Source of the DNA: Candidatus Magasanikbacteria bacterium CG_4_10_14_0_2_um_filter_37_12
GTDB lineage: Bacteria; Patescibacteriota; Patescibacteriia; Magasanikbacterales; UBA922
Assembly: GCA_002793015.1 (NCBI GenBank)
Contig: PFPK01000039.1
Location: 1-35,559, forward strand
DNA length: 35,559 nucleotides
Direction of reading: 5' to 3'
Under the pieces are notes generated by a model. It saw only the letters and a program-made list of their open reading frames with translations. It did no database searches and was not told the origin of the DNA. Shown here one piece after another: positions 1-7,043 of the stretch (positions are counted from its first letter, which is position 1; each line of letters begins with the position of its first letter). Position numbers and translations under genes: made by a program.

Positions 1-220
1 CACTATTCATATCGTCCGGATTTACTTCTTTCAGACGTGCTTCAATTTCAAGTTTTATGTCAGTTTCTTCTATGAATCTATCAAAGGCACTAGCGAGAAT
101 AACAAAACCAGGTGGTACGGGAATTCCAGCCTGGGTCATCTCGCCAAGTGAGGCACCCTTGCCACCGGCGGTTGAGACATTTGTTTTGTTGATATTTTTA
201 AATTTGCTGATGTAAATCAT
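1..220 (-). CDS. ppsA: Phosphoenolpyruvate synthase / PEP-pyruvate dikinase-like, N-terminal fragment (runs off the window)
   Basis: Reverse-strand reading from ATG at 218-220: MIYISKFKNINKTNVSTAGGKGASLGEMTQAGIPVPPGFVILASAFDRFIEET..., the typical PPDK_N/PEP synthase N-terminus (GGKGASLGEM...G..VPPGFV). Its ATG overlaps the upstream TGA (ATGA). Confidence 0.85.
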   Translation of the reverse strand, partial: MIYISKFKNINKTNVSTAGGKGASLGEMTQAGIPVPPGFVILASAFDRFIEETDIKLEIEARLKEVNPDDMNS

Positions 221-1653
221 ATTAATGTTTCTACCCACTTCTCCAATTTTTGCCACAACATCGCCACTTCCTCTCTAGAGTGCCCAATGACAGTGACACC
301 AAATTTCCCAAAATAGGAAAGCTGGCTAAGTAGATGAACGAAGACTCCGGATTTTTTGTGATGATCAAAATCCAAACCTGACTCCTGTAATTTTTTACAA
401 AATTCTTCTGGCGTGACATCTTTTAATTCTGCTTTCTTAACAAAACATTCTGTGGCACGATAAAAAACATCGCCTTTGTCACAAGTCAAAATTCCTCTCT
501 GTGGATCATACTCTGACTGGGTAAGATATTTGGTCCATAAATTGGTATGGTTAGTACCGCCCTTACGTGCATTTATTTCAATAGCCCAAATTTTCCACTG
601 GTCATCATCGGTTTTTTTGGTAGCCAGTAGATCTATAGCCATCACACCGATTCCACCGTATTCAGCTATTTTTTTGATAATTTTTTCACCAACTTGAATA
701 ATGTCCTGACGATAGGAGGCCTCTGCCGGAAAAGACACTCCACCATAAATTACATTATCAAAAATTATTTGATCATGGGTAGCTTTGTTAATGATTTGCC
801 CATCTGGAAATACTTCAAATTGAACACTCGGCGAAGTGACGATTTTTGCGTCAATGAATTCTTCCACGATACACCCTTCTGTCTCTATAGAATGTTCAAA
901 AAATGATAAATCGTCACCTGTCTCATCCAGTTTTTTCTGAATTAATTGATAGATGTCTTCACCCACTTCTTCTGCAAATATTTTTATTATCCCTTCTCCC
1001 CCACCACCATCGTTAACTTTCACTAGGAAAGCTTTTTGGTTTGTTTCATATTTTAACTTTTGTAGATTCTCTTTAACTTCTAGAAATGAAAAAGCTGGAT
1101 AACCTTTGGCATACTGTACACCAGCTTCGGCAAATATTTTTTTACTACCGATTTTTTCATTCACAAATAGTGCATCCTCGGCAATGCTATACATTGGGAT
1201 GTCCAATAGACGGGACAATTCAACAGTCGCCGGAGTAGTACGAAAAAGTTCTAAATATGCGCCGTCAGATTGCTGTGCTAATTCTCGAATATTTTCCAAG
1301 ATATCCGGACGTTTCAACAATTCTTTGGTAATAACTTTCTCTCCTGTCTTTGGCACCCAAACAAATGTCGTTCTTTTTTCCATCTCCTCTCTTGAGAGTC
1401 TGGTCATCTGGGAAGCATGGAAGAATACGTAATCCAGGTAAGCACTTTCAAGACCTTCGGAAACGACAAAGACAAGATTAGTGTTTTCTTGTTTTAAATA
1501 TTCCAAAAAATATAGATACCGTTCTTCAAAAAATTGCAGACCATCATAACGGCGATGTAGGTATTCACCTGCTGTGATATTTGAAACCACAACTACAGTC
1601 CTTGATCCGGAATAGTTTGGCTTTACTATGTTTTGGTTTTGTTTTAAGTTCAT
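217..1653 (-). CDS. ATP-grasp peptide ligase, PGM1-related
   Basis: 478-aa ORF; Gly-rich ATP-grasp loop (VKVNDGGGGEGI), Mg-binding EINARKGGTNHT motif resembling the EINxRxGGTTHP of PGM1-type ligases, and an extra C-terminal region (FVHLLSQLSYFGKFGVTVIGHSREEV). Confidence 0.75.
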   Translation of the reverse strand: MNLKQNQNIVKPNYSGSRTVVVVSNITAGEYLHRRYDGLQFFEERYLYFLEYLKQENTNLVFVVSEGLESAYLDYVFFHASQMTRLSREEMEKRTTFVWVPKTGEKVITKELLKRPDILENIRELAQQSDGAYLELFRTTPATVELSRLLDIPMYSIAEDALFVNEKIGSKKIFAEAGVQYAKGYPAFSFLEVKENLQKLKYETNQKAFLVKVNDGGGGEGIIKIFAEEVGEDIYQLIQKKLDETGDDLSFFEHSIETEGCIVEEFIDAKIVTSPSVQFEVFPDGQIINKATHDQIIFDNVIYGGVSFPAEASYRQDIIQVGEKIIKKIAEYGGIGVMAIDLLATKKTDDDQWKIWAIEINARKGGTNHTNLWTKYLTQSEYDPQRGILTCDKGDVFYRATECFVKKAELKDVTPEEFCKKLQESGLDFDHHKKSGVFVHLLSQLSYFGKFGVTVIGHSREEVAMLWQKLEKWVETLI

Positions 1654-1694
1654 AGATTACTAAAAAATATGGACATCTCTCACCTGCTCACTCA

Positions 1695-3098
1695 TTAAAT
1701 TTTAATTACATGCTTCTCTATAAACTTATCAATTCCCAACTCCTCAAACTCCTGGATAGATTTCATGGCTGGTGATTCCTGTTTTTCCAATCTTTCGTAG
1801 AGTGGCTCCAAATATTTTTCTTCACCCAATCCTCGTCCTTGCAGACCCTCTTTGGAAATATCCAAAAGTGCTTTGGCTAGTGGAATTACTTCGTCTACTT
1901 CCAGACTTTTTTCTATTGTCTTATCTCTTAGATCAATCCAATATTGCCAAGGTTTACTCTTTACAAAAGCTTCGGCTTTTTCAATATTTTCGATCATCCC
2001 AAACACTAGTGCCGGCGCAGACATGATGCTCTCCCATGGTTGGGAAGCAATACAACGTGTTTCAATATATAATTTTGTCAATTTTCCTTTCAATAATGAA
2101 TCTATATCTTTATTTTCATAAGCATCTTTGAACAAGTCCAAAGTGACTTCATTAGAAAACTCAAATCGGGGTCTAGCCATGGGCCACCCATACTGAAGCT
2201 GGTCAGACACATCGGCAATACTCGGTTCAATGTTATTTCTATCTGACAACACTATATCAAAACTGGACCAAGAATTTCCATAAAAATAATCTTTTATTGT
2301 ATCTACTTCAGGGATGACATGGACATACTTACCACTATCGCGAATCGTCATAATGTAAGGCAGTGACCAATTGCGTTCCACATACTGTTGAAAAGTTTCC
2401 AGTGGTTCTTTTGGGATACCGCGATAACGTTGAAATTTTTCTGGATATCCTGTGGTAAACAAGTTCCAACGATGTTCACGTTCTTCATGGACAAGTGATT
2501 TTTGTGCTGACTCAATAGTGGAGTTGGCACAAAGTGCTATCATGACACCAGACAAACCATTGACACAATCAAACACCTTCATAGCATCTTCGAAAGGAAC
2601 ATCGATACAAACTTGGTGAGCGGCGATGTTGGAAAAATAATGATGGTATTGTGCCCAAAATTCTTTTCTATAAAATCCTCGATACCAAGTTTTTTCTGTC
2701 TTTAAATCCGGATAATAATATGGAGTTTTTGGTTGAACTGCCAAATCTATCAGCACAATATTTTGGGTTTCGGCAACTGACAAAAATTCCGCAATAATTT
2801 CTTTCATGTTCTGCTCACATTCCAAAACTGTGTCAAAAGGAAGAAAACCAAACTCAATAATATTGACCCCTCCATCACTGTTCACGATAACTTTTTTTCC
2901 ATCTCTCTGTTCATAAATAACACCAACAGGCTGTTTTGTGCCATAATCTGTGTATAGAGTCACATGATCTTCGAGAGACCATGCTTTCCAAATCTCCTTC
3001 ACCTGATCACGACGAGCCGCTTCACCACTTGTCTTATCGATAGCTAGAAATTCGTATTCTAATGCTATTTTTCTATTTTTCATATGTTTAAAAAACAT
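1695..3098 (-). CDS. Glutamate-cysteine ligase-like (GCS2 family) carboxylate-amine ligase
   Basis: 467-aa ORF; N-terminal ALEYEF (ExE metal-binding motif), HQVCIDVPFEDAMKVFDCVNGLSGVMIALCANSTI resembling the QVNLD...ANSP region of GshA/GCS2 enzymes. Start overlaps the upstream stop (TAATG). Confidence 0.75.
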   Translation of the reverse strand: MFFKHMKNRKIALEYEFLAIDKTSGEAARRDQVKEIWKAWSLEDHVTLYTDYGTKQPVGVIYEQRDGKKVIVNSDGGVNIIEFGFLPFDTVLECEQNMKEIIAEFLSVAETQNIVLIDLAVQPKTPYYYPDLKTEKTWYRGFYRKEFWAQYHHYFSNIAAHQVCIDVPFEDAMKVFDCVNGLSGVMIALCANSTIESAQKSLVHEEREHRWNLFTTGYPEKFQRYRGIPKEPLETFQQYVERNWSLPYIMTIRDSGKYVHVIPEVDTIKDYFYGNSWSSFDIVLSDRNNIEPSIADVSDQLQYGWPMARPRFEFSNEVTLDLFKDAYENKDIDSLLKGKLTKLYIETRCIASQPWESIMSAPALVFGMIENIEKAEAFVKSKPWQYWIDLRDKTIEKSLEVDEVIPLAKALLDISKEGLQGRGLGEEKYLEPLYERLEKQESPAMKSIQEFEELGIDKFIEKHVIKI

Positions 3099-4195
3099 TA
3101 ATTTTTGACACTCCCGTATTTTTGTACAAATTTGGCCATCATCATCAAATAATCAACCCCTAATTGTCTTGGTTCTGTATCTTTGAAAACACGAACATCT
3201 CTGTTTATAGCAAATTCCAACAACCTACCTTGCTCCATCTCCGGATGACCCTGTACAGACAGAGCAACACCTAGGCCATCAACAAGTAACCCATGTACTG
3301 TTTGTGCATCTGCATCAATATCGTCACCGCTCAATTTGGGAAACCCTGGTTTATCCGGAATGTGAATAAGTCCGTGAGTAACGGCAGGATCTTCACCAGA
3401 AGTAGTCAAAAACAGAGCACTCTGTCTTGGATTATATTTCACTGCGTCTCCATGAGACACGGGTACTTCTCCAGACAATGGCCATTCAGCACCCAACACA
3501 CCTGCTACCAATCTATGTGAAGTGTTAGTAGTTTCTACAGCAACTCTACCACCAAATCTGCTTGGTAATTTATATATTTCTGAACCGCGTTGTGCAGACA
3601 ACACCTGATGTCCATAACAGATACCAATTATTGGAATGTTTAGTTCATCGGCTGCTCTGTACAACTCAACTGTTTTATTATATACATACCCATGTGAAAA
3701 TTCTTCTCCCAACACTTTTTTGTGGGGGTCTGTCAAAGCATCCGTGACGTTTGCTGGCGAGCCAGAAAGCATCATCATTCCTATTTCTCTGTCCGAAATA
3801 TTTATATTCTGCTTTTTTTTTCGGACATCAATCACTTTTAGTTCCTGACCTAAAAAACGACGAAACATTTCTTCATGTCTTGGAAATTGTCTACCAAAAG
3901 CCTTTTGAATAATAAGACGTGTTAACTCTTCCCAGCCTTGTTCATTTAATCTGTCTATAGCATTTTGAGCAAACTCATCAAATTTTCCCAAAACAGAATC
4001 AACGAGAAGGACGGATTTGCCAGCCAATGCATCGTTCAAGATTTCCTTTGCAGCCACGCTGGCACTTAACTCTCTTGCTATTATAGTGCTAGTCTCATCT
4101 AAAATTTGTTCCTTTAAAAGGACACCATCTTCTAATTTTCCAAAATTTGGTCTCATATTATTTATCAATAAACTTATTTCAAAAACTCCCCCCAA
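3098..4195 (-). CDS. Class I glutamine amidotransferase-like protein (start possibly at internal Met near 4156)
   Basis: Nucleophile elbow GICYGHQ and C-terminal VQGHPEME give the Cys/His/Glu triad of GATase-1; long N-terminal extension. Confidence 0.75.
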   Translation of the reverse strand: MGGVFEISLLINNMRPNFGKLEDGVLLKEQILDETSTIIARELSASVAAKEILNDALAGKSVLLVDSVLGKFDEFAQNAIDRLNEQGWEELTRLIIQKAFGRQFPRHEEMFRRFLGQELKVIDVRKKKQNINISDREIGMMMLSGSPANVTDALTDPHKKVLGEEFSHGYVYNKTVELYRAADELNIPIIGICYGHQVLSAQRGSEIYKLPSRFGGRVAVETTNTSHRLVAGVLGAEWPLSGEVPVSHGDAVKYNPRQSALFLTTSGEDPAVTHGLIHIPDKPGFPKLSGDDIDADAQTVHGLLVDGLGVALSVQGHPEMEQGRLLEFAINRDVRVFKDTEPRQLGVDYLMMMAKFVQKYGSVKN

Positions 4196-5001
4196 ATTCC
4201 ACCAAAACTATTTATTAAATCCTCGGCATTATAAAAAGTTCCTTTTTCTTTGGCTAATTTTTCACCAACTAGCCCGACCAAATACGTGCTAGCTAGAGTG
4301 GCGGTGAACAAATCATTAGTAGCAGACAATCCAGCAATAGCACTCGACAAGACATCACCGGTACCACCTTTGGTCATGCCAACATGACCTGTCCTATTCT
4401 CCCATAGTTCTTCACCATTACTGATATAGTCATACTTTCCAGTAAGCACAATTGTACAATGATATTTCTGAGCCATTTTCTCCACATTTTCAGCAGTAGC
4501 CTCACATTCAAAAACATTGGTAAACTCTCGTGAGTGTGGTGTCAGAATGCAATTACTATGTAAACAACTTGGCTTGACATGCCAGAGAGCTGTGGCGTCT
4601 ATAATAGTTTTTTTGTTTGGATACTTGTGTAGTATATCATGAACTAGGGCAATTGTATCAGAGGATTCTGACAAACCAGGACCAATGAGAATGCTGTCCA
4701 CAATTTCAATGGTTTCAAATAACTTTTTTCTAGAAATAGCAATAAAGGTCGAGATTTCACTACGCAATTTCTTGATCAATTTCAGATTGTCTATGGTCGA
4801 GTGCACATAGACCATATCAACAATTCGAGAAGCCGTCTCGAGAGAGAGCAACAATGCGCCGTGAAATTTGGCTGATCCAGCTATTACAAGGAGTCGTCCA
4901 TTTTGACCCTTATGGCTGTCGGGATTAGATTGCTTTAACTTTCCAAAAATTGACTGATCTAAAATTTGCATAATGTATATATTGTGCTTAATTTTAGGCA
5001 T
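4174..5001 (-). CDS. nnrD: ADP/ATP-dependent NAD(P)H-hydrate dehydratase (YjeF C-terminal domain only)
   Basis: 275 aa; GRLLVIAGSAKFHGALLLS, LIGPGL, ILTPHSREF, GGTGDVLSSAIAGLSA motifs typical of NnrD carbohydrate-kinase-like enzymes. Overlaps the next ORF by 22 bp. Confidence 0.8.
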   Translation of the reverse strand: MPKIKHNIYIMQILDQSIFGKLKQSNPDSHKGQNGRLLVIAGSAKFHGALLLSLETASRIVDMVYVHSTIDNLKLIKKLRSEISTFIAISRKKLFETIEIVDSILIGPGLSESSDTIALVHDILHKYPNKKTIIDATALWHVKPSCLHSNCILTPHSREFTNVFECEATAENVEKMAQKYHCTIVLTGKYDYISNGEELWENRTGHVGMTKGGTGDVLSSAIAGLSATNDLFTATLASTYLVGLVGEKLAKEKGTFYNAEDLINSFGGIWGEFLK

Positions 5002-5096: not shown

Positions 5097-7043
5097 TTAT
5101 TTATCAAACTTAACAATTTGATCTTGATCAATTTTTTTTGGTTGTCCATCACCATCTTTATGAGTATCTCTTCTTATGTTGCCATTTTGAACATTAGGTA
5201 CACTAGAATCTAAGTTAGTATTTTTTTTGTTTCTATTACGCTTTCTTTTGCGTTTCTTGGTAGATTTTTCTGATGTAGCTTGCTGAACTGGAGAATTATT
5301 TGGCATACCGTTTTTGGCAACAGATTCTGGCTTCGGTAAAACTTTTGGATCTGTCTGAATTGATAATTCACTTGCGATTTTTTCTTCTTTTTCTTCATCA
5401 AAAAAAACAGACAGGTCATCTTCTGGCTCGTCCTCTGGTGGCTTAATAACCGTATCTACATCAATATTATAATCTGAAAATTTGTCATTCTTATTTGAAT
5501 TTAGAACTTCCTCATTAACTAACTGCTTCTCTTCTTCCAAAGAATCTCCATTGTCTGCCTTTTTTTCCGTAGGTAAAAGGTCTTGCAAAGAAATATTATT
5601 TTCTTCAAGTTTGTCTTCCTTTGTAGTATCAATATTTCCTAGAGATGATTGTTCTGTCGGTATTTTTTTATTATTAATATTATTTTTTTTTTCATTTTCC
5701 GCCTCTGTATCATCGCTATCTATTTCCATACCACTCCATCTGGTAATTTTTTCTTCAATAATATCACGTGGTTTACCATATCGCTCACGAGACACATTGA
5801 TCACCTTCTGAGTACTCCCAGTGGAGGAGCCAATTGGTGGCATACCGATAGCACTAAAAGGGTGTGAAGCAACTCCGTCAATCATTAATTTGAGAAAAAT
5901 TTGAAACTTAGGCAAATTGACAATATGCTCTTCGGTAAACGTAGGAGCATATTCTTTGGCCAAAGCTTCTGCGTCTGCTGCACCAACCCGAAAAGTAATC
6001 ATACTGCCAACGTTTCCAAATACTGCGTCAGCCACAGTCTCGTCAAGCTGGGTGATGTACTGATGGGCCATGATTAGGCTGAGTCGATATTTTCGAGCTT
6101 CCGACAAAATATTAGCAAAAGACTGGGTCGCAAAATTTTGAAATTCATCAACGTAAAGGAAAAAATCTTTGCGTTCTTCTTCAGGAATATCCACCCGACT
6201 CATAGCAGCCAACTGAATCTCCGTGATAAGCATACCGCCAAGCAATCTACTGTTGTCTTCACCGATCCGACCCTTGGACAAATTCATAATGAGAATCTTT
6301 TTTTCATCCATGATTTGTCTAATATTTATGGTGGACTTCACTTGTGCCACCATGTTTCTAATCACACTGGCCGAGAGAAACTGACCAATCTTGTTTTGAA
6401 TCGGGGCAACAGCTTCTTTTTGGTAACGCGGTTCGTAATTGGCGAATTCTGTCGTCCAAAATGATTTGATCACTGGATCTTTCAATTGACGTACTACTTT
6501 ACTACGATATTTTTTATCAGCCAGCATTCTATTGATCCCAAGTAGCGTCGAGCCCTGGCTGTCAAGTAAAGCCAACAAAGTATTATTCAAAATATATTCC
6601 ATACGGGCACTCCAGACGTCCGGCCAAATCTTTTTGAAAACAGCCATGAGTCCAGACGCAACCAAATGCTTCTGTTCTTCTGACTCTACTTCCAAGATGT
6701 TGAAGCCAATAGGAAACTCTACATCAGCTGGATTGAAATAAACAACATCATTGGTCCGGTGGCTTGGGATATAGTCAATCAATTTCTCGGACATGTCTCC
6801 ATGTGGATCGACGACGCCAACACCATTACCATTATAAATGTCTTGCAAAATCATATTTTCAAGCATCGTGGTCTTCCCCATACCAGTCTTACCAATGACA
6901 TACATGTGCCTTCTCCGGTCGTCTGTCTTGATCCCAAACTTACGCATTTGATTGCGATAGTTTGTTTGTGCAAAAAGACAGACGTGTTGATCGTCATGTT
7001 CTCTTTTTTCTTGACCTTTGACTTGTAGATGATGACTGGGCAT
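5097..7043 (-). CDS. VirD4/TraG-like (type IV secretion coupling protein-like) ATPase with low-complexity C-terminal tail
   Basis: Walker A GKTGMGKTTMLENM, Walker B-like FFLYVDEFQNFAT, AHQYITQLD; tail is acidic/Asn-rich and ends with the basic run KKRKRKRNRNKKN. Confidence 0.8.
   Translation of the reverse strand: MPSHHLQVKGQEKREHDDQHVCLFAQTNYRNQMRKFGIKTDDRRRHMYVIGKTGMGKTTMLENMILQDIYNGNGVGVVDPHGDMSEKLIDYIPSHRTNDVVYFNPADVEFPIGFNILEVESEEQKHLVASGLMAVFKKIWPDVWSARMEYILNNTLLALLDSQGSTLLGINRMLADKKYRSKVVRQLKDPVIKSFWTTEFANYEPRYQKEAVAPIQNKIGQFLSASVIRNMVAQVKSTINIRQIMDEKKILIMNLSKGRIGEDNSRLLGGMLITEIQLAAMSRVDIPEEERKDFFLYVDEFQNFATQSFANILSEARKYRLSLIMAHQYITQLDETVADAVFGNVGSMITFRVGAADAEALAKEYAPTFTEEHIVNLPKFQIFLKLMIDGVASHPFSAIGMPPIGSSTGSTQKVINVSRERYGKPRDIIEEKITRWSGMEIDSDDTEAENEKKNNINNKKIPTEQSSLGNIDTTKEDKLEENNISLQDLLPTEKKADNGDSLEEEKQLVNEEVLNSNKNDKFSDYNIDVDTVIKPPEDEPEDDLSVFFDEEKEEKIASELSIQTDPKVLPKPESVAKNGMPNNSPVQQATSEKSTKKRKRKRNRNKKNTNLDSSVPNVQNGNIRRDTHKDGDGQPKKIDQDQIVKFDK

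Follow-up and report, generated by a model that had tools for sequence, protein, structure and literature searches.

A putative mosaic amide-synthesis cassette at a variable genomic site of Candidatus Magasanikbacteria

At one end of a 35,559-nucleotide stretch of contig PFPK01000039.1 (hereafter the window, meaning this whole stretch) from Candidatus Magasanikbacteria bacterium CG_4_10_14_0_2_um_filter_37_12, three adjoining genes encode a long-form class I glutamine amidotransferase (GATase), a GCS2-type carboxylate-amine ligase and a PGM1/BesA-type ATP-grasp ligase. Judged by sequence, the operon is pieced together from two modules, and it occupies a site between nnrD and a dikinase gene whose content varies among relatives. 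Our tentative preference, at a probability of about 0.45, is that it is a mosaic amide-synthesis cassette encoding a glutamine-dependent synthetase in which the GATase would supply ammonia. The enzyme combination is real and unusual, partly as a preliminary description of the same DNA had proposed, and looks like an undescribed route to a small amide or peptide.

The GATase scores 42.8 bits against PF00117 (cut-off 22.8) and carries the motifs C193-Y-G-H-Q and H317-P-E319, with the Cys-His-Glu triad (C193/H317/E319) invariant in six homologues, which bears out the class I identity and intact catalytic motif read from the DNA earlier. The best Protein Data Bank (PDB) matches of its profile are glutaminase subunits of GMP synthase; structures of gamma-glutamyl peptidase 1 (GGP1) are also matched at 2e-9, and the GATase has a Pfam match to Peptidase_C26. 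The window protein shares the C-x-G-x-Q nucleophile and H-P-E with GMP synthase subunit A, other class I glutaminases and GGP1, but belongs to a set of long GATases (333–378 amino acids) set apart from them by extra segments and an amide-ligase partner, and set apart from known class I glutaminases by falling into three lineages that are each tied to one ligase type.

The GCS2 protein (27.3 bits against PF04107; gathering cut-off 21) is closest to plant-type enzymes. With a nine-row profile, the match to plant glutamate-cysteine ligase (GCL) structures reaches 1e-28, in two segments jointly covering most of the protein, and its AlphaFold model (predicted local distance difference test, pLDDT, 88.7) has 2gwc as its top Foldseek match in the PDB (E 7e-19; template-modelling scores of 0.76 and 0.81, normalised to query and target length respectively), with YbdK next at 5e-11 and 1r8g and 1v4g also matched. 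Its motifs are E14-x-E16, E82 and E346-x-R348; E82, E346 and R348 are invariant in the alignment, and E14 and E16 are kept in every row covering them. Since profile, model and conserved residues agree, we regard it as a plant-GCL-like amide ligase that is probably active, and the family identity and intact motif first assigned to it stand. With plant-type GCL (2gwc, 6gmo) it shares the whole-chain fold and the E-x-E, QPK, E-x-R, GL-R and PA motifs, but it is about 17% identical in structural alignment, falls under the NCBIfam cut-off and belongs to a family that is GATase-paired elsewhere. Against the NCBIfam models for GshA (TIGR01436), EgtA and YbdK it reaches 17.9, 14.9 and 17.3 bits, with cut-offs of 463, 371 and 176, and thus lies outside those families, in keeping with the candidate new pathway of the preliminary description.

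The ATP-grasp protein scores 35.8 bits against PGM1_C (cut-off 22.5) and keeps the catalytic E/N/R within an EINARKGGTNH motif, confirming the PGM1-type assignment; K212, E264, D341, E359, N361, R363 and H369 are conserved across six homologues. It matches BesA (PDB 8yi6) at 7e-22 over residues 35–461 and reaches 90.3 bits against the BesA equivalog NF042917, below its cut-off of 750. Like BesA (an L-propargylglycine-L-glutamate ligase) and the PGM1 peptide ligase, with which it shares homology along most of its chain, it has PGM1_C and EIN-RK--H; unlike BesA, to which it is about 25% identical, it is linked to a GATase, and no propargylglycine genes were seen alongside it. Its best homologue is a PGM1 protein at locus L230 (42.5% identity), and the second is encoded on a plasmid of Robbsia andropogonis (34%), where SIS, SDR, aldehyde dehydrogenase and amidinotransferase genes cluster with it.

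Gene neighbourhoods carry the case for two modules. Searched at E 1e-8 against 367 genomes of the class, a five-row GATase profile yielded twelve genomes; we defined long GATases as those of more than 330 amino acids or fragments of one. Among these and our earlier loci, seven of eight long GATases adjoin an amide ligase, a small count from a profile built on loci already known to have ligases: besides the window, L037 and L007 have GCS2, L225 and L230 have PGM1, and L117 and L123 have a circularly permuted ATP-grasp with weak Pfam matches (25.6 and 15.8 bits; cut-off 32). Four short GATases (231–265 amino acids) from the same search adjoin neither GCS2 nor PGM1, these control neighbourhoods having been scanned with the GCS2, PGM1 and GATase profiles only; the short GATase at L057 does adjoin a GCS2. 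In a tree of 13 GATases, the window groups with L225, L230 and L224 (support 100/98), L037 with L007 (100/100) and L117 with L123 (100/100), so that by sequence the window GATase belongs with the ATP-grasp and not with the GCS2.

GATase-PGM1 pairs that lack GCS2 occur in two other genera, the window proteins being 42–46% identical to the closest (45.5% for the GATase against the L230 fragment). At L225, PGM1 is followed by GATase after a 3-bp gap; at L230, GATase is followed by PGM1 after 12 bp, the contig end leaving the GATase a fragment. GATase-GCS2 pairs likewise occur in two genera (L007 and L037/L053); a scan of genome contigs with a three-row GCS2 alignment gave two loci. The closest homologues of the window GCS2, at L007 and L053 (45% identity), have GATases of the other lineage, and the closest full-length GCS2 lies in a genome of the same family (G024, Ca. 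Magasanikbacteria RIFCSPHIGHO2_02_FULL_47_14, contig MFQB01000051). Both modules coexist, apart, in a Ca. Kerfeldbacteria genome (G516), with GATase-GCS2 on contig 18 (PFGC01000007) running into contig 52 and PGM1-GATase on contig 3. From the GATase tree, the GCS2 kinship and these separate modules, the window operon appears to be a GATase-PGM1 module joined by the ligase of a GATase-GCS2 module. TrmB-type regulators adjoin both modules of the Kerfeldbacteria genome (L037:5767–6615 and L225:5807–6589).

The exact trio was not found outside the window in the genomes searched (each search covering 287–381, with larger collections scanned once); of the co-occurrence envisaged in the preliminary description, the pairing of GATase with ligases thus recurs and the whole set does not. 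Long intact open reading frames and the independent recurrence of the pairs in other genomes set the trio beyond chance, and this recurrence supports a function. No relatives were found among viral contigs (IMG/VR, queried with the GCS2 protein, the GCS2 alignment and the ATP-grasp), nor of GCS2 or ATP-grasp in phage records, nor of GCS2 or GATase on plasmids. Plasmids gave six ATP-grasp homologues; those whose neighbours were read, and 11 loci of a broader PGM1-like clade in other Candidate Phyla Radiation (CPR) bacteria, have no GCS2 or GATase of the window families alongside.

The site itself is a place of exchange. Relatives conserve the order TraD-like gene, nnrD, variable content and PPDK_N, with homologues of the TraD-like ATPase in 59 of 59 relatives searched. 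The variable interval is empty in G019, where nnrD and PPDK_N overlap by 22 bp; it holds PEP-utilizer (phosphoenolpyruvate-utilizer) proteins in G021, G026, G029 and G031, together with an M20 peptidase in G029 and an HD-domain protein and an unmatched 348-residue protein in G031; and it includes a circularly permuted ATP-grasp and a GATase in G024 and G026 (the pairs at L117 and L123 lie at this site), which resemble the window in having GATase and ligase genes directly upstream of PPDK_N. In G025, G022 and G005, Fic or PEP-utilizer genes follow nnrD and the stretch read stops before PPDK_N. The window trio adds a further type of content to this variable cassette site. nnrD, once counted as a pathway member, is core context, because it is syntenic in many relatives without the three enzymes, adjoining the TraD-like gene. 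The G029 cassette also contains a 485-residue protein (L118:5733–7190) with no Pfam match.

We propose that the older half of the cassette would be the two-gene unit of GATase and PGM1/BesA-type ATP-grasp, that a GCS2 ligase found elsewhere with its own GATase would have been inserted between these genes, and that the whole would have entered the gap between nnrD and the dikinase ATP-binding gene. By family chemistry, each ligase would activate a carboxylate as an acyl phosphate and transfer it to an amine, and the GATase would cleave a gamma-glutamyl amide, most likely glutamine, passing ammonia to its partner ligase; the product would be an amidated or gamma-glutamyl small peptide. Ligases with glutaminases are a common enzyme type, and carbamoyl-phosphate synthetase pairs a class I GATase with an ATP-grasp. 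What is observed of a possible dedication of each GATase to a partner synthetase is lineage-specific adjacency; a physical complex and ammonia transfer are predictions of the proposal.

Several points weigh against this proposal. The C-x-G-x-Q and H-P-E motifs are common to glutaminases and gamma-glutamyl peptidases, GGP1 being among the profile's PDB matches; the AlphaFold model of the GATase (pLDDT 37) does not allow docking or a tunnel to be judged; the long GATase of L224 has no adjoining ligase; and the genome samples are small, with several loci stopping at contig ends. Moreover, a GCS2 acting on glutamate and ammonia would remake glutamine, so it would have to use another acid or leave the ammonia to the ATP-grasp alone.

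A serious rival, which we consider somewhat unlikely, is a protect-and-release scheme in which GCS2 adds gamma-glutamate to an amine, the ATP-grasp extends or modifies the conjugate and the GATase, as a GGP1/PuuD-like peptidase, removes the glutamyl group. The nearness of the GCS2 model to glutamate-cysteine ligase, the joining of glutamate to an amino acid implied by the BesA family name and the GGP1 and Peptidase_C26 matches fit such a scheme, and the three-gene operon offers it an intermediate step. At L225, L230 and L037, on the other hand, a GATase accompanies a single ligase with no middle enzyme, and forming a bond only to hydrolyse it again would be futile, so that a ligase with a glutaminase fits these two-gene operons better; the top structural matches of the GATase also lie with GMP synthase. 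On this basis we lean towards an ammonia donor over a gamma-glutamyl hydrolase, and favour a glutamine-dependent synthetase.

That the GATase-PGM1 unit and the GCS2 serve separate reactions, brought together merely by sharing the variable site, is distinctly unlikely: the site does hold unrelated cassettes in relatives and the two parts stem from different module types, but the TAATG and ATGA junctions on one strand suggest co-expression, and the two modules have in common their amide-bond chemistry and the type of partner. A thiol pathway of the glutathione or ergothioneine type is very improbable. The GCS2 fold is like that of plant GshA and the gene order recalls GshA/GshB, but scores of 13–18 bits against cut-offs of 176–463 led us to reject membership in these pathways, the ATP-grasp is of PGM1/BesA type with no GshB model among its NCBIfam matches, and relatives lack the trio. 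The GshA/GshB-like two-step synthesis suggested earlier thus retains its ligase identities, while the pathway becomes one possibility among several for an operon made of two joined modules.

Homologues of the two ligases were also seen in other settings. In two genera (L059:1273–7087 and L062:1–5243), a different GCS2 protein has a TyrRS/TrpRS-type synthetase on one side and an unknown protein of about 300 residues on the other, in a five-gene block with 44–56% identity between them. GCS2 homologues adjoin an enolase-superfamily (MR_MLE) protein at L054:2423–5135, a family that includes dipeptide epimerases, and overlap a methyltransferase gene alongside an asparagine-synthase-type gene at L055:8939–13431. 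Two tandem PGM1-like ATP-grasp genes stand at L038:6467–11302 between genes that by eye resemble lysine 2,3-aminomutase and SET-domain genes.

The window genome, a Ca. Magasanikbacteria relative, comprises 870,869 bases in 48 contigs and is 97.1% complete. The first 7 kb of the window read, on the minus strand, TraD-like ATPase, nnrD, GATase, GCS2, ATP-grasp and the start of a PPDK_N gene (Table 1), and Pfam and NCBIfam identify the last five as the co-directional run described for positions 1–5001. Two of the reported junctions are present in the sequence, TAATG between GATase and GCS2 and ATGA where the PPDK_N start at 220 overlaps the ATP-grasp stop; GCS2 and ATP-grasp are spaced by 41 nt. 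The reported 22-bp overlap of nnrD and GATase requires a TTG start and is doubtful, because GATase homologues align from an internal ATG that would give a 17-nt gap instead. The GC content of the cassette equals that of its flanks and so lends no support to recent transfer, and PADLOC gave no meaningful defence match.

Table 1. Genes in the first 7 kb of the window
Feature	Position	Strand	Evidence
PPDK_N (dikinase ATP-grasp) N-terminal fragment	2–220	-	PF01326 1.4e-15; contig end truncates gene at base 1
PGM1/BesA-type ATP-grasp amino-acid ligase, 478 aa	217–1653	-	NCBIfam BesA 1.1e-25, PGM1_C 5.5e-9
GCS2 (plant-GCL-like) carboxylate-amine ligase, 467 aa	1695–3098	-	PF04107 2.9e-6
Long-form class I GATase, up to 365 aa	3098–4195, true start probably ATG at 4156	-	PF00117 6e-11
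nnrD (NAD(P)H-hydrate dehydratase), flanking core gene	4174–5001	-	PF01256 1.5e-40, TIGR00196 above cut-off
TraD-like coupling ATPase, flanking core gene	5097–7043	-	PF10412 6.4e-15

PEP synthase unites PPDK_N, PEP-utilizers and PEP-binding C-terminal domains in one chain. The flanking gene had been labelled as such, but the window copy is an N-terminal fragment closest (3e-34) to the PPDK_N-only proteins of 313–342 amino acids that relatives encode here as stand-alone genes, and it is probably not a PEP synthase. In the window genome (G000), PPDK_N fragments lie at two contig ends, at base 1 of the window (profile 3–59) and at the end of contig 14 (L172:7546–9375; profile 199–318); these complementary pieces may be one gene split by assembly, or two genes. 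Magasanikbacteria relatives have a stand-alone PPDK_N and from 1 to about 20 separate swivel-His (PEP-utilizer) proteins per genome, mostly of 350–530 amino acids (loci: window 2–220, L117–L122, L126, L172, L177 and L178). By our reading of the matches, outside PEP synthase the presence of the two components agrees in 18 of 18 genomes (both in 13 of 13, neither in 5 of 5), counting G000 as having a stand-alone PPDK_N though both its pieces are truncated; the Fisher p of 1.2e-4 is a guide only, these being related genomes chosen for the nnrD/TraD comparison. The genes are adjacent in G009 and fused on one G000 contig. The pattern suggests that a two-component dikinase system has expanded here, a single donor serving many acceptors. 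ATP-grasp and swivel-His components divide labour in the two-component dikinases HpeHI, CreHI and PpsAB and in the fused Rph, which likewise have the T-x-x-GG-x-x-x-H motif (PMC12167813); the relatives differ in that each genome sets a single ATP component against 1 to about 20 swivel proteins, and the resemblance concerns the flanking gene, not the trio.

It is rather unlikely, though consistent with the observed pairings, that these loci represent a whole family of glutamine-dependent synthetases, with related long GATases each partnered with a different ligase fold (PGM1 ATP-grasp, GCS2 or circularly permuted ATP-grasp), spread among reduced-genome bacteria in the form of exchangeable cassettes and perhaps supplying a neighbouring multi-substrate two-component dikinase system. 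Iyer et al. (2009) reportedly predicted pathways of ATP-grasp and glutamine synthetase-like amidoligases in which enzymes of the two folds are linked by gene context. Should GATase and ligase form a true complex, a glutaminase with PGM1/BesA or GCS2 ligases would be a new way of combining standard components and could yield biocatalysts for amide formation. Biosynthetic genes are few in CPR bacteria, and the retention of an intact, exchangeable amide-ligase cassette therefore suggests a product of importance to them, perhaps in host interaction.

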